Assembly: GCA_903920695.1 (NCBI GenBank)
Contig: CAIXNB010000075.1
Location: forward strand, 1-64,000
DNA length: 64,000 nt
Direction of reading: 5' to 3'
DNA from: an uncultured beta proteobacterium
GTDB lineage: Bacteria > Pseudomonadota > Gammaproteobacteria > Burkholderiales > Burkholderiaceae_C
Position numbers and translations under genes: made by a program. The notes under the pieces are model-generated. The model was given only the letters and a program-made list of their open reading frames with translations, was not told the origin of the DNA and did not search any database. Position 1 is the first letter of the stretch, and the number at the start of each line of letters is the position of its first letter. Below, one piece after another: positions 5,931 to 58,948 of this stretch.

Positions 5931-7214
5931 TCAGAAGCAGGTGACGATGGCGTCGACCACGCTGTAGTCGGCATCGACCAGCGGCATCCAGCGCCATTTG
6001 TCGAAGGTGGTGCACGGGTGCGAAATTCCCAGGCAGATCCGATCGCCGACCTGCAGCGCCTGATGCTGCGGACCCGCGCCCTGCAGATAGGCATGCTGGT
6101 CGTTGAGTTTGGCTATTTTCCAGTCGGCCGGCGCGGCGCACAAAGTCCGTGTTCCGCGCGCGCAGAGCGCCAGCGGAATCGGCATTTCGAGGTCGTACGA
6201 CAAGTCGCGTTTACCCACTGCCAGAATCGCCAGTCCCGGCTCCGGGCACGACTGCACGCAGGCCCAGACCTCCATCGCCGCCTGCAGACCCGTACCGCAG
6301 CCGGTGCGCGCGGCCACCGCGCTCATCATGCGTTGGTAATTGCCCTGGTCATGGGTGACATAGCAGCCCGAGCGCAGCAGGCCTTGCACGCGGCGTTTCA
6401 AGCTGGGTTTGAGCGCCGTGGCGACCAGGTCGAAAATGGCCGAGCCACCGGCCGTCAGCAACAGTTCATCGCTGTCAAACAAATCCTGTTCGTCACACGC
6501 TGCAACCAACGCCTGCAGCAAGTCCATCAAGGGCCGCACATAAGCCTGATCCTGCGCCGTATCGCCGCTGGCGGCCAAGCCCTCGTAACACTCGACCCCA
6601 ACCAGTTGCACGGCGGTGCTGGCGTGCAAGCGCTGCGCCAGTTCCAGCGCCTGCGTCAGGTCGCGACAACCGGTGCGCCCACCGGGCACACCGACTTCAA
6701 GCAGCACCTCGAAAGCGCCAGCATCAGGATGCCTGTGCTGCCAATCTTCAATCAGATCGAGTTGCGCCAGCGAGTCGACCAGAAACATCAGACGCAGTTC
6801 CGGCCGGCTAGGCAGCAGGGCGGCGATGCAATCGAGGTCGATGTCGGCAACAACCTGGTTCGCAATCAGGCAACGCTGGGCACCCGCCGCCAGGCCGACG
6901 CGCATTTGCGTCACCGTGGCAAAGGTCATGCCCCAGGCGCCCGCGTCAAGCTGCAGGCGAAACAACTGCGGCGACATGCTGGTCTTACCGTGCGGCGCCA
7001 GACCCAGTCCGTGCCCTGAAGCAAAGTCCTGCATCCAGGCCAGGTTGTGCTGCAGCACATCACGCTTGATGACGGCCAATGGCAACGGCAGGTCGCCATC
7101 CAGCACATTCCAGCCCTGCGCGCCGATCTGCGAGCGCCGCAGGGGTGGACTCTGGTGCGGAAAGCCCTTTTGCGAGGCGTCGATCCAGGGGTCCAACAGC
7201 GTGTCTTGGTTCAT
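5931..7214 (-). CDS. PLP-dependent amino acid deaminase, D-serine dehydratase/D-threonine aldolase-like (alanine racemase fold)
   Basis: A 427-residue enzyme with an alanine-racemase-type N-terminal barrel and a DSD-like C-terminal domain. The PLP lysine is the K in GLGLAPHGKTSMSPQLF near residue 75. The C-terminal motif GISHPCTTFDKWR supplies the His/Cys pair that binds a divalent metal in the DSD1 family. Such enzymes deaminate D-serine or cleave D-threonine-type substrates. The ATG at 7214 is preferred over a GTG at 7220. fthC lies 9 bases upstream on the same strand, so the two are probably co-transcribed. Substrate not settled. Confidence 0.85.
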   Translation of the reverse strand: MNQDTLLDPWIDASQKGFPHQSPPLRRSQIGAQGWNVLDGDLPLPLAVIKRDVLQHNLAWMQDFASGHGLGLAPHGKTSMSPQLFRLQLDAGAWGMTFATVTQMRVGLAAGAQRCLIANQVVADIDLDCIAALLPSRPELRLMFLVDSLAQLDLIEDWQHRHPDAGAFEVLLEVGVPGGRTGCRDLTQALELAQRLHASTAVQLVGVECYEGLAASGDTAQDQAYVRPLMDLLQALVAACDEQDLFDSDELLLTAGGSAIFDLVATALKPSLKRRVQGLLRSGCYVTHDQGNYQRMMSAVAARTGCGTGLQAAMEVWACVQSCPEPGLAILAVGKRDLSYDLEMPIPLALCARGTRTLCAAPADWKIAKLNDQHAYLQGAGPQHQALQVGDRICLGISHPCTTFDKWRWMPLVDADYSVVDAIVTCF

Positions 7215-7223
7215 GGCCACGCT

Positions 7224-7823
7224 CTAAACCGGCCAGACCACGCCGTTGTCGTTCAGAATGGCATCGAGCGGCATATCGTGCGGCTCGGGCTCGAAATCGG
7301 GCAGAAAACCCGGCGCAAAGCCAAGCCCGACCGTGACCGGGCGCGGCTGCAGCGTCGCCAGCATGCGGTCATAGAAACCGCCGCCGTAGCCCAGGCGGAA
7401 CCCGCCCGGCGCGTAGCCGACACAGGCTACAAACAGCAAGGTCGGCACGATCACTTCGGTGTCCCTGGGCTTGGGGATACCGTAGGCATCTTCTTCCATC
7501 GGGCAGCCCGGGTACCAGGCATGAAAAGTCATGGTCTTGTGCACCTTGTCGACCACCGGCAGACCGATCTTGCGCAGACGCGACTGCTCAATCAGTTCAC
7601 CATCTTCCTTCCAGCGGTGCAGGGCCGGCAGTGGATCGAACTCTCCCTTGATCGGCCAATAGGCGCCAATCACGGTGTCGGGCCGGTTCACCAGCCAGAT
7701 GCGCATGACACGCTGCAATAAATCCGCGCGTTGTAGGCGATCGGGCAGGTTCAAGCGTTGATGAATCAGTTGCTCGCGCAGGGCTTTCTTCTCAAGCCTT
7801 CTGTTGTTTCCCGATGTATCCAT
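7224..7823 (-). CDS. fthC: 5-formyltetrahydrofolate cyclo-ligase
   Basis: Converts 5-formyl-THF to 5,10-methenyl-THF with ATP, rescuing folate from a dead-end form. The 199 residues show the family pattern: an N-terminal KKALREQLIHQRL helix, YWPIKGEFDP near residue 55, and the C-terminal nucleotide-binding signature GGFRLGYGGGFYDRML. The start ATG at 7823 is 9 bases from the divergent transglycosylase start at 7833, so the two genes must have promoters inside each other's coding sequence or share a very compact one. Confidence 0.93.
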   Translation of the reverse strand: MDTSGNNRRLEKKALREQLIHQRLNLPDRLQRADLLQRVMRIWLVNRPDTVIGAYWPIKGEFDPLPALHRWKEDGELIEQSRLRKIGLPVVDKVHKTMTFHAWYPGCPMEEDAYGIPKPRDTEVIVPTLLFVACVGYAPGGFRLGYGGGFYDRMLATLQPRPVTVGLGFAPGFLPDFEPEPHDMPLDAILNDNGVVWPV

Positions 7824-7832
7824 AATCCCATC

Positions 7833-9836
7833 ATGCAGTTTCACACTATTTTGACATCGATTGCCGTCTCGGCCTGTCTGGTGCTGACGGCGGTCTCGCC
7901 GGTGCAGGCACAAGCCACGGCAGCGACCGCTTCGCAATCGGACGCGGTAATTCTGGAAATGAACCAGGCTTTCAAGAAGGGCGACAGCAAGCGCCTGAGC
8001 GCCCTGCTGCCGCAAGTGCGCGGCCACACTCTGGAGCCCTGGGCCACCTACTGGGAACTACGGGCCCGGCTCGAAACTGCGGCGCCGGCCGAAGTGCAGG
8101 ATTTCTTCACGCGCTTTGCCGGTAGTTACCAGGAAGACCGTCTGCGCAACGACTGGCTGCTGCTGCTGGGGCAACGCCGCTACTGGAGCGACTTTGCCGA
8201 CGCCCTGGCGCCGTTTCGCATGAATGATGACCGTGAAGTGCGCTGCTACAGCTTGGCGCTGGAGCCGCTGGCCACCAGTCCTGAACTGAGCGCTGATTTC
8301 AAGCGCGTCTGGTACGCGCAGAGAGACGTCGACGACGGCTGCAACTATGCGGCCAATCATCTGTTTGCAGCCAGACGGCTGAGCGAGGCCGATGTCTGGC
8401 GCAAGGCGCGTCAGGCCATGGAAAACAACCGCCCCAAACTTGCCAAGCTGGCGGCGGAGATCATCTCCACGGCAGCGGCAGCGCCGATCGATGAAATCAA
8501 CAACAACCCGGCGCGCTACCTGTCAAAACGCGTTATCGCCGCAAACCGTGTCGCCAAGGAATCCGTGGTACTGGCCCTGATCCGTATGGCAGCCAACGAC
8601 CCCGACAGTGCCGCCAGCGCCTTAGAAAACCACTGGAGCGTGCACTTGAGCGCGGAGCAACGCTCGTGGGTTTGGGGAGTGATCGGCAAACAAACGGCAC
8701 AGCGCCTGTCAGGCGACGCGCTTGCCTATTTTTCCAAGGCCATCGAAAGTGAGCTCAGCGATGGACAGCTCGGCTGGAAGGTTCGTGCCGCGCTGCGTCA
8801 GGCGCAGTGGAAAGACGTACTGTCGGCCATACAAGCCATGAGCCCCGAGGTGCGCCAGGAATCAGTCTGGGTCTACTGGCGCGCACGGGCACTGAACAAG
8901 CTGGCCAAGTCCGACACCGACCGCGCCGCAGCCAAAGCATCATTTGAAGGCATCGCCAGCGTGCGCGGCTTCTACGAACAACTGGCGCTGGAGGAAGTCG
9001 GCCAACGCATCACAGTACCGGCGCGCCCTGCTGCCCTAAGCGTCGAAGAGCAGGATGGCGCACGCCGCAATGCCGGTCTGCAGCGCAGCCTGTACGCGAT
9101 ACGAATCGGCTTGCGCAGCGACGGTGTGCGCGAATGGAACTACAGCACCAACCTGCACACGCCGGGTGGCATGAACGACCGCGAACTGCTGGCTGCGGCC
9201 GACCTGGCGTGCCAGAGCGAGGTCTGGGACCGCTGCATCAACACCAGCGATCGAACCAAGAACGTGATCGACTTCGAGCAACGCTTTCCGATGCCGCACA
9301 AGAGCGCCGTATTGCAGCGCGCAGCGCGGATCGGCCTCGATCCGGCCTATGTCTATGGCCTGATCCGCCAGGAAAGCCGCTTCATCATGGACGCGCACTC
9401 GGGTGTCGGCGCCGCCGGGCTGATGCAAATCATGCCACCAACGGCGCGCTGGACGGCAAAAAAGATCGGACTGACAAGCTTCAAGCCGAACCAGATCAAC
9501 GAGCGCGACACCAATATCGTCATCGGCACGGCCTACCTGAAACTGGTGCTGGACAACTTCGACGGATCGATGCCGATGGCCGCCGCCGCCTACAACGCCG
9601 GGCCAAGCCGTCCCCGTAGCTGGCGCGGCCAGAGCGGCGCACCGCTAATGGACGCGGCGATCTGGGCTGAGAATGTGCCGTTTGCCGAGACCCGTGACTA
9701 TGTGAAGAAAGTGCTGTCCAACACCACCAACTACGCCGCGCTGATCAGCGGCCAGCCGCAGTCGCTGAAACAGCGCCTGGGCTTGGTCGGCCCGCGTGAC
9801 GCCAGCGCCCCGGAACCGAGTCAGGACCTGCCGTAG
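7833..9836 (+). CDS. slt: Soluble lytic murein transglycosylase (Slt70-like)
   Basis: A 667-residue periplasmic enzyme that cleaves peptidoglycan glycan strands to 1,6-anhydromuropeptides. A signal peptide occupies about residues 1-27 (cleavage after VQAQA), followed by a long superhelical U-domain. The C-terminal goose-lysozyme-like SLT domain has the catalytic Glu in GLIRQESRF, then the GVGAAGLMQIMPPTAR block and AAAYNAGPSRPRSW. The ATG at 7833 was chosen because it opens the signal peptide. The product feeds the anhydro-muropeptide recycling that AnmK (33.6 kb) also serves. Confidence 0.92.
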   Translation: MQFHTILTSIAVSACLVLTAVSPVQAQATAATASQSDAVILEMNQAFKKGDSKRLSALLPQVRGHTLEPWATYWELRARLETAAPAEVQDFFTRFAGSYQEDRLRNDWLLLLGQRRYWSDFADALAPFRMNDDREVRCYSLALEPLATSPELSADFKRVWYAQRDVDDGCNYAANHLFAARRLSEADVWRKARQAMENNRPKLAKLAAEIISTAAAAPIDEINNNPARYLSKRVIAANRVAKESVVLALIRMAANDPDSAASALENHWSVHLSAEQRSWVWGVIGKQTAQRLSGDALAYFSKAIESELSDGQLGWKVRAALRQAQWKDVLSAIQAMSPEVRQESVWVYWRARALNKLAKSDTDRAAAKASFEGIASVRGFYEQLALEEVGQRITVPARPAALSVEEQDGARRNAGLQRSLYAIRIGLRSDGVREWNYSTNLHTPGGMNDRELLAAADLACQSEVWDRCINTSDRTKNVIDFEQRFPMPHKSAVLQRAARIGLDPAYVYGLIRQESRFIMDAHSGVGAAGLMQIMPPTARWTAKKIGLTSFKPNQINERDTNIVIGTAYLKLVLDNFDGSMPMAAAAYNAGPSRPRSWRGQSGAPLMDAAIWAENVPFAETRDYVKKVLSNTTNYAALISGQPQSLKQRLGLVGPRDASAPEPSQDLP

Positions 9837-9842
9837 CCAGGA

Positions 9843-10031
9843 CTATTTGGCCGGTTTGGAATCGGGAATCACAACGTCAAGGACCGCGCCTGTGGCCTCG
9901 ACGCCGGTCTTGACAACCACGGCCGCCGTGGTCACCACCGCATCGGCCACTGCCACCACGGCACAAGCACTGATCGGCAGCAAGGCGACCCTGAACAGCG
10001 CCAGCGCTGCGCCTCTTCCAACTCCTGACAT
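9843..10031 (-). CDS. Small lipoprotein (NF038104-like)
   Basis: A 62-residue protein with a short Leu/Ala-rich signal ending in a lipobox-like PISAC (Cys about 23). After it come CAVVAVADAVVTTAAVVVKT and a C-terminal DVVIPDSKPAK. A very similar layout (GCAVVSVADAA... VVDVAIPDS) is known in a small betaproteobacterial lipoprotein family that I recall as NF038104. It fills the gap between the transglycosylase and GST genes on the opposite strand. Its composition is strongly Ala/Val. Function unknown. Confidence 0.6.
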   Translation of the reverse strand: MSGVGRGAALALFRVALLPISACAVVAVADAVVTTAAVVVKTGVEATGAVLDVVIPDSKPAK

Positions 10032-10083
10032 GAGAGCACTCCGCTTGATATGCCTAGAATTATCGACTTAAGGAGACCCCCCC

Positions 10084-22158: not shown

Positions 22159-22512
22159 TTACTGAGCCAATATCCAGCCGATCAGGTTCTTGATCTCGGC
22201 CACATCCTTGGTCGCAATGACCTTGTGCTCTTCTTCTGTGCCATCGATCATTTTGACCTTGGGCGCCTTCGTGAGCGCATCCACCAGTTTTGCCTCGGCA
22301 TCGGCTTTGCCGTGCCACTTGGCAGCGATCTTCTTGAATGAAGACGCCTTCTTGTCCTTGTCAACCGCATGGCATTTCAGGCAATCACTCTTCTTCGCCA
22401 GGGCCTGAGCCGCATCGGCATTGACAGCAGCGCTGGCAACGCCAGAAAACGCGATGGCAGCAGCCCCCAGGACCGACAAAGTGATCAGTGTTTTTGGAGT
22501 CGAAAGTTTCAT
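22159..22512 (-). CDS. Class I monoheme cytochrome c
   Basis: A 117-residue periplasmic c-type cytochrome. A signal peptide (residues about 1-28, ending GVASAA) is followed by one heme motif CLKCH near residue 44 and a probable distal ligand region around KMIDGTEEEHKVIATKD. The ATG at 22512 has AAGAAGGGAAT upstream. It is transcribed away from the sigma-54 promoter region of the multiheme module, sharing a 498-base gap with it, so it may be a small soluble partner of that electron-transfer system. The redox partner is inference. Confidence 0.9.
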   Translation of the reverse strand: MKLSTPKTLITLSVLGAAAIAFSGVASAAVNADAAQALAKKSDCLKCHAVDKDKKASSFKKIAAKWHGKADAEAKLVDALTKAPKVKMIDGTEEEHKVIATKDVAEIKNLIGWILAQ

Positions 22513-23010
22513 TGGAAATATTCCCTTCTTGGTTCCAATTGTTTCCATTTGCCGGATAGGTACACCGGCAAGAGCCTGTGAATCCGCATCGCGGCCCACA
22601 AACACATCGGCATTTTCACGCTGATTCAGTTGCGCTCCTAGACCGCACATGCGGTGTCTCTGATCTGTATCAAAGCGCAAGCTTTAAGGCCCGGGACAGG
22701 CTCGGGAGCAGGATCCGCCAAGGAATTCTTCTCCTTTCAGTCAAAAAACAAACCTGGCTGCACATAAAAAATATTCGCCAACTGTCGCGAGCTGTCACCC
22801 TGATTACGCGGGCAACTCCTGCTTTGCGCCAGAAAAATGTATAAATAAAATGTACCTTGGGAATCGTTCACAGCCCGAAACCGCGCTCGCCGGGTTCGCT
22901 AAAGTTCATGTAATTCATTGATAACAAACGTTAAACCACAAATAACAGAGACCTGGCACAGGGCTTGCATAGAACAAACCAGCAAGCACATGAAAGTAGA
23001 GGGTATCCAA
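22513..23010. other. Gene-free divergent control region of the cytochrome module
   Basis: 498 bases between the monoheme cytochrome gene (minus) and the first receiver gene (plus). It holds the sigma-54 promoter at 22954-22969. Upstream are candidate activator-site features: the direct repeat CTGTC-GCGAG-CTGTC near 22780-22800 with a central TCGCGA palindrome, and an AT-rich stretch with two ATGTA words near 22835-22855. None of these upstream features is a recognised binding site. Confidence 0.5.
22954..22969 (+). promoter_or_regulatory. Sigma-54 (-24/-12) promoter
   Basis: TGGCACAGGGCTTGCA matches the sigma-54 consensus TGGCAC-N5-TTGCA with the correct 10-base gap between the invariant GG (22955-22956) and GC (22967-22968). 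Transcription would start near 22980, about 30 bases before the ATG at 23011. A sigma-54 activator gene lies 3.3 kb downstream on the other strand. Confidence 0.85.
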
Positions 23011-23430
23011 ATGAATCAAGAAACCAAAATCCTGGTGATAGACGATGAAGAAGTCGTCCGCCTCAGTTATCTGCGGGCCCTGTCAGACGGCAGCCGCAAG
23101 GTGGAACTGGTGAGAAGCGGCACGGATGCCCTGCAATTGATGGGCGAGCACTCCTTTGATGTCGTTTTACTGGACCAGCGTATGCCGGGCATGGATGGCA
23201 TGCAGGTGCTCAAAGCCATCAAGGAAAAATGGCCCGAAAGCGAAGTGATCATGATTACCGGCTACCCCGCGATTGAATCGGCCAAAGAGGCTGTGACGCT
23301 GGGTGCCTATGACTACCTCGCCAAGCCCATCGGACCGGACGATGTCGTCCATGCCGCCGACGGCGCCATGATGCATAAAAAATGGATGCTGCGTTGCGAC
23401 CAACAGGCCCAACACGCTGCGGTTCATTAG
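23011..23430 (+). CDS. Single-domain response regulator (CheY-like receiver)
   Basis: 139 residues, nearly all receiver domain: acidic pair DDE at 11-13, phospho-acceptor Asp 55 in VVLLDQRMPGMDG, Thr in MITGYP, and Lys in YLAKP. No output domain follows, only a short tail. It is the first gene behind the sigma-54 promoter, so it is probably induced by the same activator that drives the cytochromes. It could act as a phosphate sink or relay for the nearby heme-sensing kinase. The ATG at 23011 has a GAGGG site upstream; an in-frame ATG at 22990 is less likely. Confidence 0.88.
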   Translation: MNQETKILVIDDEEVVRLSYLRALSDGSRKVELVRSGTDALQLMGEHSFDVVLLDQRMPGMDGMQVLKAIKEKWPESEVIMITGYPAIESAKEAVTLGAYDYLAKPIGPDDVVHAADGAMMHKKWMLRCDQQAQHAAVH

Positions 23431-23499
23431 AGCCTGAATGTCCGAGGAAATGTGTTGAAAATTTCAGCAATCTTGCTGGTCAATTGTTAAGGAGATACC

Positions 23500-24063
23500 A
23501 TGAGTGCACTGCGTAAGGTTTTGGTGGTTGATGATGATGCCGTGGTTGGCAAGAGTTTCAACCGCGTCCTGTCGGAGAAAAATGGCTATATCGTCACCAC
23601 GGTCGAGAATGCCCATGAGGCGCTAAAGCAAATCCGCGAGCAGTCGTTCGATGTCGTTTTCACCGACATCAAGATGCCCGGTATGGACGGTGTCGAGTTG
23701 GCGGAAAAGGTCAGGGCCAGCCAGCCCTGGACGCCGGTGGTCATCATCACCGGCTACGGCACGACTGACAATGAAGTCAGGGCCAAGGCCGCTGGCGTCA
23801 CGGAGTTCATGCGCAAGCCGCTGTCGCCCGAAATGATCGAGGAAAGTGCAGCGCACGCGCTGACACCGGCAGCGGTGCCGGAAATGGCGGCAGCGCCGGT
23901 CGAGCAGGTGCAGGCAAAGGAAAGCCGGGTCAAGAATATCGCCCTGTTCCTGGCTGCTCCGTTCATCGGTCTGGCTTATGCGGTGATGCTGCCCGTAGTC
24001 GGCATGGTGATGCTGGCCAAGCTTGGTACCCAAGCCTTCAAGGCAAGAAATCAAAAAAAATAA
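23500..24063 (+). CDS. Response regulator receiver protein with C-terminal membrane segment
   Basis: 187 residues. Residues 1-120 form a receiver domain (DDD at 11-13, Asp 56 in VVFTDIKMPGMDG, IITGYGT, MRKPLSP). An Ala/Pro/Glu-rich linker follows. Residues about 146-173 are strongly hydrophobic (FLAAPFIGLAYAVMLPVVG) and end in a basic tail KARNQKK. A CheY-like domain tied to the membrane by its own C-terminus is unusual. It lies 69 bases after the first receiver gene, with a good AAGGAG site, and just before a terminator. Possibly it signals at or is sequestered by the inner membrane; role unknown. Confidence 0.85.
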   Translation: MSALRKVLVVDDDAVVGKSFNRVLSEKNGYIVTTVENAHEALKQIREQSFDVVFTDIKMPGMDGVELAEKVRASQPWTPVVIITGYGTTDNEVRAKAAGVTEFMRKPLSPEMIEESAAHALTPAAVPEMAAAPVEQVQAKESRVKNIALFLAAPFIGLAYAVMLPVVGMVMLAKLGTQAFKARNQKK

Positions 24064-24121
24064 AGCCTTGAGCTACATCACGAATCTGCCAAACAATTAC
24101 CTTGACGAGAAAACGCAGACG

Positions 24122-24156
24122 CCATCAGGGATGACAATCGTCCCTGATGGTTTTTT
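24122..24156 (+). terminator. Rho-independent terminator
   Basis: Ten-base stem CCATCAGGGA / TCCCTGATGG (24122-24131 and 24141-24150) with a nine-base loop and six T residues. It lies between the second receiver gene and the nine-heme cytochrome gene, so it should end or attenuate transcripts from the sigma-54 promoter. Confidence 0.85.
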
Positions 24157-24187
24157 GCCGTTAAGAACCCATAAGAGGGGAACCTGA

Positions 24188-25588
24188 ATGAATAGCTCCT
24201 GCGCTGCGGGCACCATGATCCTGTCATCACGTCCAAAGAGTTTTGTATTGGCAGGCATGCTTGCACTTGCCCTGTCCTTTGTCGGCCTGACTGCCCGCGC
24301 GGCAGAAGGCGAAATGTCCAAAGAGAGCACAGCCTGCCTGTCCTGTCACGACAAGCAGGGCTTGACCAAAACACTCGATAGCGGGGAAGTTTTGTCATTG
24401 AGCATCTCGACCACGGCCTATACCGAGTCAATGCACAAGAAGGCCGATTGCGAGGACTGCCACTCGAACCTTGATTCGAAAACACACGGCAAGGTCAAGA
24501 GCGCCATCAAGAGCAAGCGCGAATTCACATTAGGCATGCGCGAATCCTGCCGCGACTGCCACAAGAAAAAAGCCACCGAATACGATGACAGCGTTCATGC
24601 AGCACTGATCAAGGCCGGCAACAAAAAAGCGCCGCTGTGTTCAGACTGCCACAACCCCCACACCGTGCGTTCGACCAAGATCGTGACACCAATCGCCGAA
24701 ACGCCCTGCGCCAAATGCCACGAAGCCATCTTCAAGGCCTATTCAAAAGACGTCCATGGTCATGAGCGCATCGCCAAGGGTATCAGCGCCCCGCTGTGCG
24801 CCGGTTGCCACCAGGCACACGCAGTCAAGGCGGCATCGATGGGCGAGGGCGTCAAGGATGCCTGTCTGGCCTGCCACAAAGAGGCTGTCAATCAGCACAA
24901 GGACTGGTTGCCCAACACCGCACGACACTTTGACGCCATCTCCTGCCCTGTCTGTCATGCGCCGGACGCGAAGCGCCGCGTTAACCTCAGACTCTACGAC
25001 AGCACGGCAAAGCGCCAGGTTGCAGAAAAAACCGGCGTGCCAAAATTTGAAAACCGGGCCGATGCCGGCGACAGCAAGGCCATGGGCCTGGATGAACGGG
25101 CGCTGTGGAGCCTGCTGAAGGAATTCAATCAGGATGGCGGCGACGGCAAGATGCTGCTGCGCGGCCGACTTGAAGTCAGCTCTGGCGTCGAAGCCCACCA
25201 GTTGGCCGAGAAATCAAAAGCGATCAAGGACTGCGACACCTGCCACAGGCAGGGCGCTGCAGCCTTCCAAAGCGTGACCCTGACGATCGCCGGCCCGGAC
25301 GGCCGCCCCCTGCGCCATGGTGTGCAAAATGAAGTGCTCAATTCCCTGACTTCGATGGAATCGGTACGCGGTTTCTATGCCATCGGCAGCACCCGCATCA
25401 AGTTGCTGGACTACCTGTTGGTGCTGGTCGTGTTCGGTGCCCTGAGCGTGCCACTGGCCCATATGACGGTCAAGCGACTGTTCAAGGGAGTGCGCGAAAA
25501 ACTCGAGGCTGAACGGCTCGCCGCCGCTCAGGATGCTAATAAACAGGCTTCAACCGGCAATCGTCATGATGACGACGCCTCAAAATAG
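24188..25588 (+). CDS. Nine-heme c-type cytochrome with C-terminal membrane anchor
   Basis: 466 residues. A signal peptide (about 1-39) leads to a periplasmic domain with nine CXXCH motifs in the order CLSCH, CEDCH, CRDCH, CSDCH, CAKCH, CAGCH, CLACH, CPVCH, CDTCH, with many extra histidines for bis-His ligation. One transmembrane helix near residues 398-416 (LLDYLLVLVVFGALSVPLAH) is followed by a charged cytoplasmic tail. An AGGGG site precedes the ATG. The cytochrome b gene follows 12 bases later. The pair looks like a quinol-linked electron conduit between inner membrane and periplasm. Direction and final acceptor are unknown. Confidence 0.9.
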   Translation: MNSSCAAGTMILSSRPKSFVLAGMLALALSFVGLTARAAEGEMSKESTACLSCHDKQGLTKTLDSGEVLSLSISTTAYTESMHKKADCEDCHSNLDSKTHGKVKSAIKSKREFTLGMRESCRDCHKKKATEYDDSVHAALIKAGNKKAPLCSDCHNPHTVRSTKIVTPIAETPCAKCHEAIFKAYSKDVHGHERIAKGISAPLCAGCHQAHAVKAASMGEGVKDACLACHKEAVNQHKDWLPNTARHFDAISCPVCHAPDAKRRVNLRLYDSTAKRQVAEKTGVPKFENRADAGDSKAMGLDERALWSLLKEFNQDGGDGKMLLRGRLEVSSGVEAHQLAEKSKAIKDCDTCHRQGAAAFQSVTLTIAGPDGRPLRHGVQNEVLNSLTSMESVRGFYAIGSTRIKLLDYLLVLVVFGALSVPLAHMTVKRLFKGVREKLEAERLAAAQDANKQASTGNRHDDDASK

Positions 25589-25600
25589 CAGGAAACCGCC

Positions 25601-26239
25601 ATGGAAAAGCTTTATATCCACCCCCTCCCGGTCAGGCTCTGGCACTGGACCAATGCCTTCGGTTTCGTGTTGCTGATTGCAACCGGCTTGCAGATAAGGT
25701 ACCTTGACCTGTTTCACTTGCTGCCGTTTCGGACCGCAGTCGTTGTTCATAACTGGATTGGGTTCATCCTGATCGCCAACTTCTTTGTCTGGCTCGGCTA
25801 TTACCTGTCCAGCGACAAGATCAAGGTCTATCACCCCGAACTGAGCCCAAAGAAGTACTTCCAAGCAAGCTTTCGTCAGATCCAGTTCTACGGATACGGT
25901 ATCTTCCGCGGTGACCCGAACCCGCACCATCCGAGCGCTTACAAGAAGTTCAACGCCCTGCAAAGCATGCTGTACCAGATCATCATGATGCTGTTAGTGC
26001 CAATCATGTTCTTCACCGGACTGCTGCTGTGGGATGTGGGCCGCTTCTCTTCAATCGTCGAGATGCTAGGCGGTGTGCGCGTGGTAGACACGGTGCATGT
26101 GCTGCTGTTCATCGTGTTCTGCGGCTTCATCGTCGTGCACGTCTATCTGGCCAGCCTGGGCCACACCGCCTCAGCTCACTTCAAAGCCATGATCACCGGC
26201 TACGAAGAAGTTGAGGACGAACCCAAGCACTTAGAATAA
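25601..26239 (+). CDS. Cytochrome b561/thiosulfate reductase-type cytochrome b subunit
   Basis: 212 residues with four transmembrane helices and heme-b histidines in helix 1 (VRLWHWTNAF), helix 2 (VVHNWIGF) and helix 4 (DTVHVLLFIVF, VVHVYLASLGH). This matches the di-heme cytochrome b subunits of hydrogenases, formate dehydrogenases and thiosulfate reductases, which exchange electrons with quinones. It lies 12 bases behind the nine-heme cytochrome, so the two probably form a membrane complex. No catalytic molybdenum or nickel subunit is nearby. Confidence 0.88.
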   Translation: MEKLYIHPLPVRLWHWTNAFGFVLLIATGLQIRYLDLFHLLPFRTAVVVHNWIGFILIANFFVWLGYYLSSDKIKVYHPELSPKKYFQASFRQIQFYGYGIFRGDPNPHHPSAYKKFNALQSMLYQIIMMLLVPIMFFTGLLLWDVGRFSSIVEMLGGVRVVDTVHVLLFIVFCGFIVVHVYLASLGHTASAHFKAMITGYEEVEDEPKHLE

Positions 26240-26268
26240 AAAAAAGAGGCTTCGGCCTCTTTTTTTTT
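26236..26268. terminator. Bidirectional rho-independent terminator
   Basis: Stem AAAAAGAGGC / GCCTCTTTTT with a TTCG loop (26241-26264), T-tract to the right and A-tract to the left. It lies between the converging cytochrome b and sigma-54 activator genes and can serve both. Confidence 0.9.
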
Positions 26269-26279
26269 GCGCCATTCTT

Positions 26280-27707
26280 TCAGGACGGCTCGGCTTCGTC
26301 GGGGTCGTATTCGGTGTCACGCACCCGAATGTTGTACTTCTTCATCAGCGCCTGAAAATTCGAGCGTTGCATGCCGGTTTCTTCTGCACTCTTGGTCACG
26401 TTCGACGCATTGCGCTTGAGCGTCTCCTGAATAAACAGTTTCTCGACGTCCTCGACCGACTTCTCGCGTGCAATCTTCTTCAGGCGCTTGAGGTCCTCGC
26501 CCGTTCTGGGCACTTCCAGGTCTGAGCGCGGCGTGGTATCGATGATGTTGACCAGATGCGCCTGGTGGATGGCCTTGTCGGACGCCAGGATGATGGCCCG
26601 GTGCATGGTGTTTTCAAGCTCGCGCACATTGCCGGGCCAGTCGTAGTTGACCAGCGTGCTCATGGCAGCCTCCGAAATCTCCGGCACCGGTTTTTCCATC
26701 TCCGCGCAGAATGCCTTCAAGAAATGGAATGCGAGCGCCGGAATATCATCGCGCCGCTCGCGCAGGGCCGGCGCCTGGATCGGGAAGACGTTGATGCGGT
26801 AGTACAGATCTTCGCGGAAGGTCCCTTCGGCGACCATCGCCTTGAGATCCTTGTTGGTTGCCGTCACCAGTCGGACGTTGGTCTTCTGGGTCACGGTGCT
26901 GCCAACCGGCCGGAATTCTCGCTCCTGGATCACACGCAGCAACTTGGCCTGCGTTGACAGCGGGATATTGCCGAACTCGTCAAGAAAGAGCGTGCCATTG
27001 TTGGCGACCTCGAACATGCCACGCTTGTTGGCCACGGCTCCGGTAAAAGAGCCCTTGGTATGGCCAAACAGTTCACTCTCCAAAAGGTTCTCGCTCAGCG
27101 TGTTGCAGTCGACCGTGACAAAGGGCTGGTCCTTGCGCAAGCTGTTGTAGTGAATGGCACGGGCGATCATTTCCTTGCCGGTGCCACTCTCCCCGGTGAC
27201 CAGGACGGTCGTATTGGTTGGCGCGCACTTGGCGATCAAGGCGAACACCGCCTGCATCGGCGCGCTGGAGCCGATGATGTTTTCAAAGCGGTATTTGGAG
27301 CCGACCTCGGTTTTGAGATTGCGGTTCTCCTGCAGCAGCCGGCGGCGCTCCAAAGCGCGGTCCACAACATGCTTGAGTTCATCGGGGTCAAAGGGTTTGG
27401 ACAGATAGTCAAAGGCGCCCAGTTTCATGGCCTTGACCGCAGTCTGAATCTGCGACAGGCCGGTCACCATGATCACGTCAACATCAGGATGGCGCTCCTT
27501 GACCTGCTGCAGGACCTCCAGACCATCGATGCCGGGCATCATGATGTCGAGCACCAGCAAGTCGTACTCGCTCTCGTCAACCTTGCGCAGGGCCTCCATG
27601 CCGTCCTGCGTCGAGTCGACCGAATATAACTGCTTGTCGCTCAGGATGCGCCGACAGCTCCGAATGACAATTTCCTCGTCATCAACGATCAGGACTCTGG
27701 CACTCAT
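26280..27707 (-). CDS. Sigma-54-dependent response regulator (NtrC/AtoC class)
   Basis: 475 residues in three parts. The receiver has phospho-acceptor Asp 54 in LLVLDIMMPGIDG. The AAA+ activator domain has Walker A GESGTGKE, FGHTKGSFTGA (a GSFTGA form of the sigma-54 contact loop) and Walker B GTLFLDEFGNI. The C-terminal Fis-type HTH contains NASNVTKSAEETGMQRSNF. Its start overlaps the kinase stop by four bases, so the two form a two-component pair. The sigma-54 promoter at 22954 in front of the cytochrome module is the obvious candidate target; that link is inference. Confidence 0.92.
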   Translation of the reverse strand: MSARVLIVDDEEIVIRSCRRILSDKQLYSVDSTQDGMEALRKVDESEYDLLVLDIMMPGIDGLEVLQQVKERHPDVDVIMVTGLSQIQTAVKAMKLGAFDYLSKPFDPDELKHVVDRALERRRLLQENRNLKTEVGSKYRFENIIGSSAPMQAVFALIAKCAPTNTTVLVTGESGTGKEMIARAIHYNSLRKDQPFVTVDCNTLSENLLESELFGHTKGSFTGAVANKRGMFEVANNGTLFLDEFGNIPLSTQAKLLRVIQEREFRPVGSTVTQKTNVRLVTATNKDLKAMVAEGTFREDLYYRINVFPIQAPALRERRDDIPALAFHFLKAFCAEMEKPVPEISEAAMSTLVNYDWPGNVRELENTMHRAIILASDKAIHQAHLVNIIDTTPRSDLEVPRTGEDLKRLKKIAREKSVEDVEKLFIQETLKRNASNVTKSAEETGMQRSNFQALMKKYNIRVRDTEYDPDEAEPS

Positions 27708-29332
27708 TGTTTGCTCTCATCTGCATTGGGTAAAGTTTCGTTTGAAGGCGGCGTCACCGGCAGGACAACGCGGAACGTGGTGCCGACGCCGACCACGCTC
27801 TCAACGCTGATCCTGCCACCGTGCGCTTTGACAATGCCATAACTGACCGACAAGCCCAATCCCGTTCCCTTACCAACCTCTTTGGAGGTGAAGAACGGGT
27901 CAAAAATCCGCTGCAGGTTGGCCTGAGGAATGCCACAACCGGTATCGGTCACAAGCACCTCCACCATCGGCTCAAGCGCAGCGTCAGCCTTGGCGGTGGG
28001 CGCAAGCGCGCGGCTTTGCACCGTGACCTGCCCCTTGCCCTCGATCGCCTGCTGGGCATTGACCAGCAAGTTCAGGATGACCTGTTTGACCAGGTCGGCA
28101 TCGCCCCAGGCCTGCGGCAGTGCCGGGTCAAGTTCGGTGGTGATTTCGACCTGTTGCAGCGACGCGGGCCGCTCGACAAAGCGCACCGTGTCCTCAATCA
28201 CCTGGTTCAGGTTATAAAACCCTTTGACCGGCACTTTTTCGCGCGCGAAATCGAGCAGGCGCTTGATGATGCTGGCGCAACGCTTGGTCTCGCGAATCAC
28301 CAGATCCAGATCCTCGGCGTCCTCGCTGCCCTCCGGCGCTTTCTTGCGCATCAACGAGGTAAAGGTCAGCACACCCGTGAGCGGATTGTTCAACTCATGC
28401 GCAATGCCGGAGGCCAGCACGCCGATCGACGCCAGTTTTTCACCCTGCGCCACCTCGGCCTTGGCCGCCAGCAATTCTTTGGTTCGATCCGCAACCTTGG
28501 TTTCCAGAGTCTGCACCAACTGCTCCATGGCGTGTCGCGACTCACCCAGCGCTGTGGTCATCTGATTGAAAGAGCCGGCAACGCGGCCAAATTCATCGTT
28601 GCTGCGCACCGGAATGGCGTGACCGAGTTCGCCCGAACTCACCTTGTCTGCCCCCGTGGCCAGATCCTTCAAGGGCAGGTAGATCAGGCGCTGCAGCAGG
28701 AAGCCGATGGTGAGCGCGAAAAGGATGATGAAACCAATCGACATGCCGATCACGTAAATGGCATGGGTGCGCAGCGACTGATCCATCTCGTCGAGGGAAT
28801 AGGCGACATCGACAATACCCAGCACCGACTGGTTGGCCCGATGCTCGTGGCAGGAGGCTGAGGAACAGGATGCCTCGTTGCGTATCGCGTGCATGGACCC
28901 GAGCACCCGGTGCCCGCCGGTGGTTTCGACAATCTTCCAGCGTTTGTCGTCCGGCACCCGCTGCAAGGGCTGACTGGTCTGATGGCAGCTGATGCAGGAG
29001 TCGTCTTTCTGGTCAACCGAGTAGCCAACCTCGGCCTTGTGATTGGAATGAATGATCGTGCCGTCCTTGCTGATGACACGGATGCGCTCAATGCCTTTTT
29101 GCTTGCCAATGTCCTCAATGATCTTTTCCACGATGTCGCGCTTGTTGACCAGCATCGTGTAGCGCGTACTGGCGACCACCATTTCAGAAATTTGGGTGAC
29201 ATGGCGGGCCACCACACTTTGCATGTCTTCCTGGCGTTGCTTGAGGATCAGCAGCGTGAAAAGAACCATCGCCGTCGACAAAACGATGATCAAAGACAGA
29301 CTGATTTTGAGCTTGAGACTATTTTTTGGCAT
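27704..29332 (-). CDS. Histidine kinase with heme-type periplasmic sensor domain
   Basis: 542 residues. TM1 is about 9-30, the periplasmic domain about 31-190, TM2 about 191-214, then HAMP and a HisKA/HATPase core (His 312 in ASGIAHELNNPL, NLLVNAQQA, DTGCGIP, GKGTGLGLS). The periplasmic domain contains CISCH (113-117), a canonical heme c site, and CSSASCH (156-162), a CX4CH variant, suggesting one or two covalently bound hemes that sense redox state or a gas. The ATG at 29332 was chosen because TM1 follows at once; the frame extends to 29398. It is paired with the sigma-54 activator. Confidence 0.9.
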   Translation of the reverse strand: MPKNSLKLKISLSLIIVLSTAMVLFTLLILKQRQEDMQSVVARHVTQISEMVVASTRYTMLVNKRDIVEKIIEDIGKQKGIERIRVISKDGTIIHSNHKAEVGYSVDQKDDSCISCHQTSQPLQRVPDDKRWKIVETTGGHRVLGSMHAIRNEASCSSASCHEHRANQSVLGIVDVAYSLDEMDQSLRTHAIYVIGMSIGFIILFALTIGFLLQRLIYLPLKDLATGADKVSSGELGHAIPVRSNDEFGRVAGSFNQMTTALGESRHAMEQLVQTLETKVADRTKELLAAKAEVAQGEKLASIGVLASGIAHELNNPLTGVLTFTSLMRKKAPEGSEDAEDLDLVIRETKRCASIIKRLLDFAREKVPVKGFYNLNQVIEDTVRFVERPASLQQVEITTELDPALPQAWGDADLVKQVILNLLVNAQQAIEGKGQVTVQSRALAPTAKADAALEPMVEVLVTDTGCGIPQANLQRIFDPFFTSKEVGKGTGLGLSVSYGIVKAHGGRISVESVVGVGTTFRVVLPVTPPSNETLPNADESKQ

Positions 29333-57013: not shown

Positions 57014-58825
57014 TCAGAGATCGGGCTCCATGACTTGAGAGGCGCAGATGTACTCCGACCACATGCCGTGCATAGCACTTTCAAAGGCATTGGCAAATCG
57101 CGGCGCATCGCACAATGGCGACGCCAGTAGGTTTTGGCGTAAATTCTCTCTTAGCGAACTCAGCTGCTGTAGATTGCCGATCCGCTCTTTGACGCGCGTT
57201 ACATAGTCCGCCTTGTCGGTCGCGATCCAATCCTGCAATCCCGCATTCACAAGAATCCCTACCCCCTGTCGCGACAAAAAAGTCTGCCCGGCCAGAGTGA
57301 GCACTGGCACCCCCATCCAGAGGCTCTCCACCGTGATGGTCCCGCCGGGGTAGGGAAATGGATCCAGTTGAATATCCACATGGTGATAGGCAGACAAGTA
57401 CGCATCCCGTGGGGCTGCGCCTTCCATGGTGATTCGGTCTTCACCTACTCCGTACACGCCAAAACGCCGAATCAGATCAACCCGGGCGTTCAGGTGATCG
57501 AGTTGCTTCGTCTTGAAGAGGATTCGGCAAGAAGGCACAGCGTTCATTAACTGTGCCCACACAGAGATCACTTGATCATTCACTTTGGACAAGTTGTTGA
57601 AGCAACCGAATGTAATGAAACCATTTGCCAAGGCAGGCAATGGTGAGACGGGGATGTTCAGATCAGGCGCTGCAAAGCAAAGCCGTGTTTCAGGAAGTCT
57701 CCAGATTTTCTCCGTAAAGTACTGCTCCTCGGACTTGGGCAGTGTCCATGGATCGGCCAATAGATAGTCCATGGCGCTCAATCCGGTTGACGCAAAGTAG
57801 CCAAGCCAGCTCACCTGAACAGGTGCCGCCTTCCACGCGAAAACGGGCAGGCGATTCAAGGCGGTATGCCCCGAGAGGTCAATTAGAATATTGATTCTAT
57901 CGCTGTTGATCAGTGCCGCCAGCTCGGAATCAGTCATCTCATTGGCCGCAGTCCATTGCCTAAACGCTGGCTGAAGGCGCGCGGTGAGCGCGTCATGGAC
58001 GTGATGCGTGCTGTATGCGAATAGGTCCAACTGCGAGTGCGTGTTAGCTTTCAATGCGCGTACCACGGCTTCCAAAAAATAGCCCACCGGGTGCTGCCTC
58101 AAATCTGGGGAAACGAATCCCACACGCAAACGCCGCACACCAGCGAAGTCTTCGCGCCGATGCGTAAAAGGGCGAACAACGCGCTCCACCAAGGCTCCAT
58201 AACGCTTGGCCTCCTCAAATATGACAGTCGAATCATGGGCAAGATAATTGTGAATCCACACAATATTGCTTTGGACTGCGGCCAAGTCGGGCCGATGCGA
58301 CAATGATATTTGGAAGCAAACTAAAGCCTCTTCCATCCTCCCCAGATCAAGAAGTACCGACCCCAAGTTGCTGTGTGCTTCTGCGAAATCCGATTTGATC
58401 TGCACCGCAAGGCGATAACTTGCAATGGCTTCGTTCGGCCGTCCAGCATTGCGTAGCGCCACACCTAGCGTGTTGTGCACTTCGGGATCGAAGGGCAGAC
58501 ACTGAGCAGCCCTTTGAAGCGCCAATAAAGCATTCTTGCCCTGTAAATGCAAGGACGCTCCCAGAAATTTCCAAACTATTCCGGCGTCTGGAAATGTCCG
58601 GATTAAATGTAGTGCACGCGCTTCCAACTCCAAGTATTTGCGTGCACCAAACAACGCTGCCAGCGCGTGCATGTCAGAGACAGCCAATAAGGCTGGCGCA
58701 ACGACAGCCTCTTCAACCTGAACAGCGCAGCATTTTTTCCATTTCTTGCCGCTGCCACAAGGGCAAGGATCATTTCTTCCGACTCTCAACTTCAGTACAC
58801 CTGTATTTGTCAATGAAAGCAGCAT
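57014..58825 (-). CDS. SEC-C / TPR / O-GlcNAc transferase-like (GT41, SPINDLY) protein
   Basis: 603 residues. A SEC-C zinc motif (CPCGSGKKWKKCC, residues 21-33; CxC-x8-CC) is fused to about four TPR units (EVHNTLGVALRNAGRPNEAI, AEAHSNLGSVLLDLGRMEEA) and a GT41 catalytic region. That region includes LRQHPVGYFLEAVV, ILIDLSGHTALNRL, PVQVSWLGYFASTGL, FGCFNNLSKVND and PYPGGTITVESLWMGVPVLT. It looks active: the histidine of HPVG and the UDP-binding loop are present. It probably transfers GlcNAc or another sugar to protein Ser/Thr. It is divergent from a second SEC-C/TPR protein of the same design. Confidence 0.88.
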   Translation of the reverse strand: MLLSLTNTGVLKLRVGRNDPCPCGSGKKWKKCCAVQVEEAVVAPALLAVSDMHALAALFGARKYLELEARALHLIRTFPDAGIVWKFLGASLHLQGKNALLALQRAAQCLPFDPEVHNTLGVALRNAGRPNEAIASYRLAVQIKSDFAEAHSNLGSVLLDLGRMEEALVCFQISLSHRPDLAAVQSNIVWIHNYLAHDSTVIFEEAKRYGALVERVVRPFTHRREDFAGVRRLRVGFVSPDLRQHPVGYFLEAVVRALKANTHSQLDLFAYSTHHVHDALTARLQPAFRQWTAANEMTDSELAALINSDRINILIDLSGHTALNRLPVFAWKAAPVQVSWLGYFASTGLSAMDYLLADPWTLPKSEEQYFTEKIWRLPETRLCFAAPDLNIPVSPLPALANGFITFGCFNNLSKVNDQVISVWAQLMNAVPSCRILFKTKQLDHLNARVDLIRRFGVYGVGEDRITMEGAAPRDAYLSAYHHVDIQLDPFPYPGGTITVESLWMGVPVLTLAGQTFLSRQGVGILVNAGLQDWIATDKADYVTRVKERIGNLQQLSSLRENLRQNLLASPLCDAPRFANAFESAMHGMWSEYICASQVMEPDL

Positions 58826-58948
58826 GTCCGAAGCGAAATCCTCACAAGAAAATTGCGCAACTTAGCCTGTAATATGATGTACGACAGTCTACCGCAAGCG
58901 CAAGCTCAGGCGCCCAATGCCCTGCCAACTACTAGTCAGAAAAGCCGA
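58826..58948. promoter_or_regulatory. Divergent control region between the two SEC-C/TPR genes
   Basis: 123 bases, more AT-rich than the surroundings, with TAATAT near 58870 as a possible -10 for the plus-strand gene. No convincing -35 is seen. Possible TTG and ATG codons in frame at 58853 and 58874 would shorten this gap. Confidence 0.3.

Follow-up and report, generated by a model that had tools for sequence, protein, structure and literature searches.

When bacteria have several electron exits, transcription is usually, to our knowledge, the only explanation given for their choice. A locus in the 64,000-nucleotide stretch of DNA analysed here (hereafter the window; contig CAIXNB010000075.1 of an uncultured beta proteobacterium) raises the question of whether a two-component system might also act on a respiratory membrane complex itself. 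The locus, which belongs to Rhodoferax-like freshwater bacteria, extends from 22159 to 29332 and encodes a monoheme cytochrome c, two receiver proteins, a nine-heme cytochrome c, a cytochrome b, a sigma-54 activator and a histidine kinase with heme-binding motifs (Table 1). The monoheme gene reads to the left and the receiver and cytochrome genes to the right; the activator and kinase genes are convergent to the latter, and the kinase stop overlaps the activator start (ATGA). An earlier note on this DNA had described the seven genes as a compact unit, and all seven were found to be present and conserved together, the monoheme gene (22159-22512) lying just outside the range that had been given. 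The genome to which the window belongs (G000, 4.88 Mb) is 99.4% complete.

On balance, we favour a reading in which a cytochrome pair resembling CbcBA of Geobacter stands under a sigma-54 circuit with a heme kinase, would serve a route from quinone through MtoD to MtrCAB, and would be controlled both by transcription and by a tethered receiver. At the level of sequence, this reading is built on the conserved gene set, a three-part promoter whose presence matches that of the kinase, the mtoD and mtr genes that lie in synteny with the set in a sister clade, and a shared membrane segment that is receiver-fused in the kinase lineages and receiver-less in the kinase-less clade. If the reading is true, two-component control would bear on the respiratory membrane complex and not just on its genes, and the locus would offer a testable case. 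Published sources are cited below for those of their passages that bear on the proteins in question.

A heme-motif kinase and a three-part promoter

The unit was found to be conserved in other Burkholderiales, where the earlier note had proposed that its co-occurrence be sought. A scan of species genomes yielded 22 loci from other genomes, in 18 of which the activator gene lay convergent next to that of cytochrome b; the kinase stood behind the activator in 15 of these 18, the contig ending first in the other three, and the arrangement was found even at loci with different flanking genes. At L019, L024 and L025 no kinase was adjacent, but one was present elsewhere in the genome. Among 89 genomes of the genus, the nine-heme gene was found in 38 and the kinase in 28 (both in 27, the kinase alone in one, the nine-heme gene alone in 11 and neither in 50), with the limitation that Fisher tests on these counts, and on the promoter and segment counts given below, ignore shared ancestry. 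Among 399 genomes across the order, each was found in five and both in four. The earlier note had held that kinase-activator homologues regularly occurring without the cytochromes would speak against a coupled module; within the genus they do not so occur, and the order provides one exception (G067), which is weighed below.

At the head of the set, the earlier note had placed a near-perfect sigma-54 promoter. The site in question (22954-22969) is one of 12 exact matches to TGGCACN5TTGCW in the 4.88-Mb genome, against three for the reversed control, and its position is conserved in relatives. With a sigma-54-like site defined as a score of at least 25 of 30, such a site was located at -49 to -62 in all 25 distinct receiver-1 upstream regions, these having been merged from 39 of 40 rows (one row had no upstream sequence); about one in 10 random 400-bp pieces also reaches this score, but not at a fixed position. 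Where receiver 2 is set apart from receiver 1, it often has a sigma-54 box of its own. A selection of 33 promoters was then compared, consisting of 22 receiver-1 regions (most near-copies dropped) and 11 receiver-2 regions, the latter retained only where a sigma-54-like site was present. The element TGTACYT, which forms half of the dyad at 22839-22855 in the window, was present in 26 of the 33, where shuffles predicted 0.48, and usually lay at -99 to -104 from the box, and an IHF-type element (YAANNNNTTGATW) in 22 against 0.27 expected, mostly at -41 to -43. The label IHF-like for the site at 22911-22923 follows the IHF consensus.

Dyad element, IHF-like site and -24/-12 box were searched together as one pattern, and this full signature was found at 51 places in 29 of the 89 genus genomes, the reversed pattern at none. 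It was present in 25 of the 28 kinase-bearing genomes versus four of the 61 without kinase. Across the order, three of the 399 genomes matched (G000 and G322 with the kinase, G299 without it; control, none), and G067, G329 and G381 carry the kinase yet have no exact match; the matches in G446 and G299 lack a good IHF core and may be due to chance. With the signature tracking the kinase in this way, and the nine-heme gene found in 27 of 28 kinase genomes, the proposal that kinase, activator and promoter form a set was supported. The signature also provides a searchable marker of the regulon.

In the proposed mechanism, the kinase would use two predicted covalent hemes to sense nitric oxide or the redox state of the periplasm, and would phosphorylate the activator, which, presumably bound at the TGTAC dyad, would switch on the sigma-54 promoter. 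The c-type heme motifs that had been noticed earlier in the kinase were identified as one canonical CXXCH and one CX4CH, both near-invariant among 133 aligned sequences: the former was intact in 132, and the Cys, Cys and His columns of the latter were kept in all 133 (in L075 three residues separate the Cys). Covalent heme attachment at both motifs is predicted. A relative in G408 (L071, 3487-5112), the sole sequence without an intact CXXCH, has CXXCY in its place and keeps the second motif.

The sensor domain containing the CXXCH was predicted to adopt a Cache fold, two of five model runs being of moderate quality (mean predicted local distance difference test, pLDDT, 71.5 and 67.9) and three poor. 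In this predicted fold the kinase may resemble sCache_heme (DUF3365/Tll0287, PF11845), a periplasmic Cache-type domain with CXXCH that is sometimes fused to histidine kinases (PMC12889525). On one alternative, the kinase would sense nitric oxide in the manner of sCache_heme proteins, and the module would answer nitrosative conditions and not acceptor supply. The predicted fold is consistent with this, as are weak PF11845 matches (eight of 16 kinase sensor members at E up to 1, best 0.0065) and the description of a signalling-associated sCache_heme protein that bound nitric oxide and formed no stable O2 complex (PMC12889525). The window's sensor domain, however, reached 15.2 bits against a PF11845 cut-off of 24.1, for which reason assignment to the family was rejected, and a second heme motif, invariant in the kinase as CX4CH, is not mentioned for sCache_heme in the passages of PMC12889525 considered here. 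We consider this alternative doubtful. Either way, a kinase with two heme motifs offers a measurable signal, redox or nitric oxide, and Rhodoferax ferrireducens, the labelled source of a homologue, is a cultured organism.

The activator carries the receiver and sigma-54 AAA+ domain of the NtrC family and accompanies a sigma-54 promoter with an upstream dyad; its Fis-type helix-turn-helix is weak (18.6 versus 22 bits). Among the 25 best NCBIfam families for each, neither the kinase nor the activator reached a curated cut-off. The arrangement resembles AtoSC, ZraSR and NtrBC in its kinase, receiver-AAA+ activator, upstream dyad, IHF-like site and -24/-12 promoter, and differs from them in that the predicted regulon includes receiver-segment membrane proteins.

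A membrane segment with and without a receiver

An element that the earlier note had missed is a receiver fused to a membrane segment that appears to belong with the cytochrome pair. Receiver 2 ends in a hydrophobic segment, APFIGLxYAxxLP, and a long helix was predicted for its residues 140-186 (one good model of five runs); in three proteins checked for this, the segment lay outside every Pfam family match. Searches with the segment found 423 proteins, and of the 120 listed, 114 also have a receiver domain. It was found by search in 36 of the 38 genus genomes with the nine-heme gene versus four of the 51 without, and in the remaining two nine-heme genomes (G458 and G479) it was read directly in L064 and L069. 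The signature promoter is shared by genes for proteins with one, two or three copies of the segment, some of which include a receiver and some of which do not.

In eleven genomes of the genus the nine-heme gene occurs without the kinase. In a midpoint-rooted tree, a 100/100 branch separates ten of them as a group nested within kinase-bearing rows; the remaining genome, G477, carries the signature promoter and is 75% complete. The sister clade thereby provides a built-in comparison, in which complex and bare segment occur with no kinase, local sigma-54 box or receiver. Its ten loci (L061-L070) have the gene order small protein, nine-heme cytochrome, cytochrome b, with an MtoD-like gene next in nine. 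The small protein, of 54-64 residues counted from the first ATG, contains the motif SPFIGLxYAVLLPGK and no receiver, and such a segment-only protein was located upstream of the nine-heme gene in all ten. No activator or receiver of the window kind was found in these loci, activators elsewhere not having been searched, and in the 400 bp preceding the small protein sigma-54 scores peaked at 20-24 of 30, as in random pieces (mean 22.4). As kinase, sigma-54 box and receiver are gone together and the segment is kept with the cytochromes, we infer that the segment is a membrane partner of the oxidoreductase, and predict that it is receiver-gated in the kinase-bearing lineages.

A more specific version of this proposal is put forward tentatively and with low confidence: the segment may work with a CbcBA-like quinol:cytochrome oxidoreductase, either as a small subunit in the membrane or as a partner, and its fusion to a receiver in kinase-bearing bacteria would let the kinase with two heme motifs set activity as well as expression. 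In the favoured reading, the segment of receiver 2 would dock on the cytochrome b/nine-heme pair, and the kinase would act on the complex directly.

Five of the ten kinase-less loci (L061, L063, L064, L065 and L069) have exact FNR-like sites in the 400 bp ahead of the small protein, in four of the five at 19-44 bp before its start, and a differently placed 600-bp scan gave four of ten such loci versus one of 33 other rows. These sites suggest that one regulator was swapped for another in the clade that lacks the heme kinase.

The phospho-acceptor Asp was found to be kept in both receivers (D55 of receiver 1 in 27 of 27 distinct sequences, D56 of receiver 2 in 35 of 36), and phosphotransfer from the kinase to three receivers, that of the activator included, is predicted. 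The same conservation would be expected if receivers 1 and 2 were phosphate sinks or feedback brakes and the receiver-2 tail a plain anchor near the kinase, unrelated to the enzyme. Such a role would also agree with the position of receiver 1 at the head of the operon, with the sigma-54 site often possessed by a split-off receiver 2, and with G067, where kinase, activator and receiver-segment protein occur without the nine-heme gene. On the other side stand the survival of the segment as a protein of its own, next to the cytochrome gene, in loci that lack kinase and receiver (ten of ten loci, all of one clade) and the receiver-less segment proteins that share the same promoter. As a plain anchor needs neither, both count against it, and we regard the phosphate-sink explanation as rather unlikely.

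The receiver-less proteins came to light in 20 stretches around signature sites, taken from the 51 and situated mostly at places not already seen beside cytochromes. In 18 of the 20, the first gene encodes a segment protein, beginning 44-108 bp downstream of the promoter (first Met); 12 of these proteins have a receiver, with one, two or three segment copies, and six have none. At L116 and L124 a receiver-2-like start was located at +536 and +104, respectively, followed by the contig end, and at L112 an MtoD-like gene (82%) follows the segment protein. L107, L108, L114, L115, L118 and L125 each encode, under the signature promoter, a receiver-less protein of 123-130 residues with two copies of APFIGLxYAxxLP, and no cytochrome gene was recognised downstream within these stretches.

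Three features of the unit are new relative to the earlier note, namely the upstream dyad, the IHF-like site and a hairpin at 24122-24156. In many kinase-type loci a stable hairpin occupies about the same position ahead of the cytochrome gene, its stem being different yet matching. Of 40 kinase-type or outgroup loci, 29 had a hairpin at or below -16.7 kcal/mol in a minimum-energy scan, versus one of 10 kinase-less loci, with 26.7% of random pieces reaching this value, and a strict scan for perfect stems gave four of 43 loci versus eight of 400 random pieces; the argument for the hairpin is accordingly one of location and matching stems, not of energy. Given its position about 30 bp before the cytochrome start, the cytochromes probably need readthrough, so that the hairpin would keep the receivers more abundant than the enzyme.

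Receiver relatives also occur elsewhere in G000. On contig C102 (L081), two receiver-like open reading frames (ORFs; 35% to receivers 1 and 2) and then a 704-residue protein with eight CXXCH were observed at 6665-10074, and a receiver-2-like tail at 14-340 is cut by the contig start.

The cytochrome pair and its probable electron route

The earlier note had described a nine-heme cytochrome with a C-terminal anchor beside a cytochrome b, and this description was confirmed. The nine CXXCH are invariant in 16 aligned sequences and the C-terminal anchor is present; the gene is single-copy in G000, where the next matches reach at most 39 bits against 1045. The protein matches PDB chain 28pb_A (E 1.1e-17), named by its depositors only 'Cytochrome c', whose aligned part contains seven CXXCH or more. 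In the cytochrome b, which belongs to PF01292, His15, His50, His166 and His180 are each kept in at least 98% of 48 distinct sequences, which fits two b hemes, and quinol chemistry is predicted for the pair.

That no named system with this set was known, as the earlier note had stated, was not borne out, since CbcBA of Geobacter is close. CbcBA combines a PF01292 cytochrome b with a membrane-bound heptaheme cytochrome c containing PF09699 (PMC7726332) and is used at low acceptor potential (PMC12307469). The window pair is like CbcBA (Cbc5; GSU0593/GSU0594 of Geobacter sulfurreducens) in having a PF01292 cytochrome b beside a PF09699 multiheme cytochrome c, and by this analogy it likely works in the same way under a sigma-54 two-component circuit of its own. 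CbcBA too has a sigma-54 activator, BccR. The window locus may differ from it by its heme-motif kinase and its two receivers, one of them tied to the segment. Membership of the CbcL/MtrH/MtoC group, multiheme c-type cytochromes with mostly six transmembrane motifs (PMC6295460), was also rejected, as the c and b parts are here encoded by separate genes (466 and 212 residues) and not in one polypeptide.

The monoheme cytochrome was aligned over residues 10-116 with PDB 4XXL (E 1.3e-29), which is MtoD with heme ligands His47 and His95 (PMC4412085); its His48 and His96 align to these ligands and are both kept in 23 distinct sequences, in agreement with a class-I monoheme cytochrome c of the MtoD type. 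The likeness to the Mto/Mtr pathway (MtoD, MtrCAB) includes the bis-His ligands and, in the sister clade, the gene neighbours. In most sister-clade loci the MtoD-like gene is near an mtr conduit, the window copy being located beside the cytochrome pair instead, and mtr-type genes adjoin the set in seven of the ten (at L063 on the upstream side). Genes of L061, L062, L064 and L070 exceeded MtrC/OmcA, MtrA/DmsE or MtrB cut-offs; those of the other loci were recognised by size and heme count. On contig C113 of G000, genes for a 57% paralogue of the window's MtoD-like protein and for MtrC, MtrA and MtrB stand in a row. MtrB exceeded its family cut-off in 35 of the 38 genus genomes with the nine-heme gene versus 12 of the 51 without. 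Because mtr genes adjoin the pair in the sister clade and the window's own genome has mtrCAB, an extracellular route, which the earlier note had thought plausible, is likely: the pair would link the quinone pool electronically with an MtoD-type shuttle in the periplasm, which would in turn serve the MtrCAB outer-membrane conduit.

The pair could instead serve a periplasmic reductase or another respiration. Its cytochrome b scores well on a thiosulfate reductase cytochrome b model, although its 128 bits are under the cut-off of 204, and three of the 38 pair genomes (G443, G461 and G467) have no MtrB over the cut-off, among them the 98% complete G461, which has only weaker MtrB matches. Nevertheless, the bias in MtrB distribution and the mtr-type neighbours argue for the conduit, and none of the seven genes of the locus could be recognised as encoding a reductase, making this alternative improbable.

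The direction of flow was considered as well, since electrons taken from Fe(II) or Mn(II) might arrive through Mtr and MtoD and be used by the pair for quinone reduction. Ramlibacter lithotrophicus RBP-1 has the receivers and the nine-heme gene twice (L025 and L105), mtrCAB expression on Mn(II) has been described for strain RBP-2 in coculture (PMC8805035), and MtoD was described from an Fe(II) oxidiser (PMC4412085). In contrast, a kinase homologue (P0109; 68% identity over the sensor part) is labelled as belonging to Rhodoferax ferrireducens, an Fe(III) reducer (PMC2755013), and MtoD (+155 mV) does not interact with the inner-membrane ImoA in Sideroxydans (PMC13390432). We consider electron uptake unlikely. 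The passages of PMC8805035 on the neighbours of mtrCAB do not name a pair of the window type, and literature searches found no description of this module, absence from print not being claimed beyond these searches. In the Ramlibacter lithotrophicus genome (G488), one of the two sets is situated about 6 kb from a kinase-activator pair.

Several observations weigh against the reading of a CbcBA-like pair controlled by transcription and a tethered receiver. The window protein has nine hemes and CbcA seven, for which reason the pair was not filed as CbcBA itself; the related loci L074 and L075 have seven CXXCH. The kinase-less clade represents a single evolutionary event, so the argument from fusion and separation has a sample of one, and three of its ten loci have no adjacent mtr-type gene, with L061 having mtrA and mtrB without mtrC. 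In the L014/L042 and L047/L078 lineages no segment gene lies upstream of the nine-heme gene, copies being present elsewhere, and the loci of L024, G322, G103 and G381 likewise have none at that position. Segment proteins under the signature promoter away from cytochromes indicate that the segment is not only the partner of this pair. The exact signature is absent from three kinase-bearing genus genomes (G408, G420 and G441). In G067 there are a kinase (67-68%), an activator and, preceded by a sigma-54 site, a receiver-segment protein, and no nine-heme gene was found; G103 carries the cytochrome pair without the kinase. Finally, as the genome's own mtrCAB has no exact sigma-54 site, the conduit lies outside the predicted regulon, and a sigma-54 promoter shared by the mtr conduit was rejected on the same finding for C113.

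Features of the locus and neighbouring observations

Table 1. Coordinates, strand and supporting evidence for the features of the locus in the window.
Feature	Position	Strand	Evidence
Monoheme cytochrome c, MtoD-like, predicted periplasmic shuttle	22159..22512	-	match to PDB 4XXL
Upstream dyad GTATAAATAAAATGTAC, predicted activator-binding site	22839..22855	+	TGTACYT enrichment among promoters
IHF-like site TAATTCATTGATA	22911..22923	+	YAANNNNTTGATW enrichment among promoters
Sigma-54 -24/-12 promoter TGGCACAGGGCTTGCA	22954..22969	+	exact TGGCACN5TTGCW match
Receiver 1, stand-alone response regulator	23011..23430	+	PF00072 8.5e-29
Receiver 2, receiver domain and C-terminal membrane segment	23500..24063	+	PF00072 1e-28
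Hydrophobic segment APFIGLxYAxxLPxVG of receiver 2, residues 145-180	23932..24039	+	segment-family searches
Terminator-like hairpin and T run, receiver 2 to nine-heme gene	24122..24156	+	-24.0 kcal/mol
Nine-heme cytochrome c, C-terminal membrane anchor	24188..25588	+	PF14522, PF09699 and others; nine CXXCH
Cytochrome b, PF01292 family, two b hemes predicted	25601..26239	+	PF01292 1.2e-29
Two-way terminator hairpin dividing the convergent units	26239..26268	.	sequence
NtrC-class activator: receiver, sigma-54 AAA+, weak Fis-type helix-turn-helix	26280..27707	-	PF00158 2.1e-70, PF00072 5.2e-35
Histidine kinase: periplasmic Cache-like domain, HAMP, HisKA, HATPase	27704..29332	-	profile matches, predicted model
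Kinase CXXCH heme-binding motif, C113/C116/H117	28982..28996	-	alignment of 133 sequences
Kinase CX4CH heme-binding motif, C156/C161/H162	28847..28867	-	alignment of 133 sequences

Beside mtrCAB on C113 (L083 and L086), two more MtrC-like multiheme ORFs and three PdsA-like proteins (under the cut-off, with four to six CXXCH) were observed, and by their sequence the multiheme genes of this contig make up a larger electron-transfer cluster. An FNR-like site, TTGATN4ATCAA, is present at position 10183 of L086, upstream of the genome's own mtrCAB, and suggests oxygen control of these genes. Further along the window, at 57014-61486, two divergent large proteins were recognised by eye, with a SEC-C-like Cys-rich start, TPR-like repeats and a glycosyltransferase-like part.

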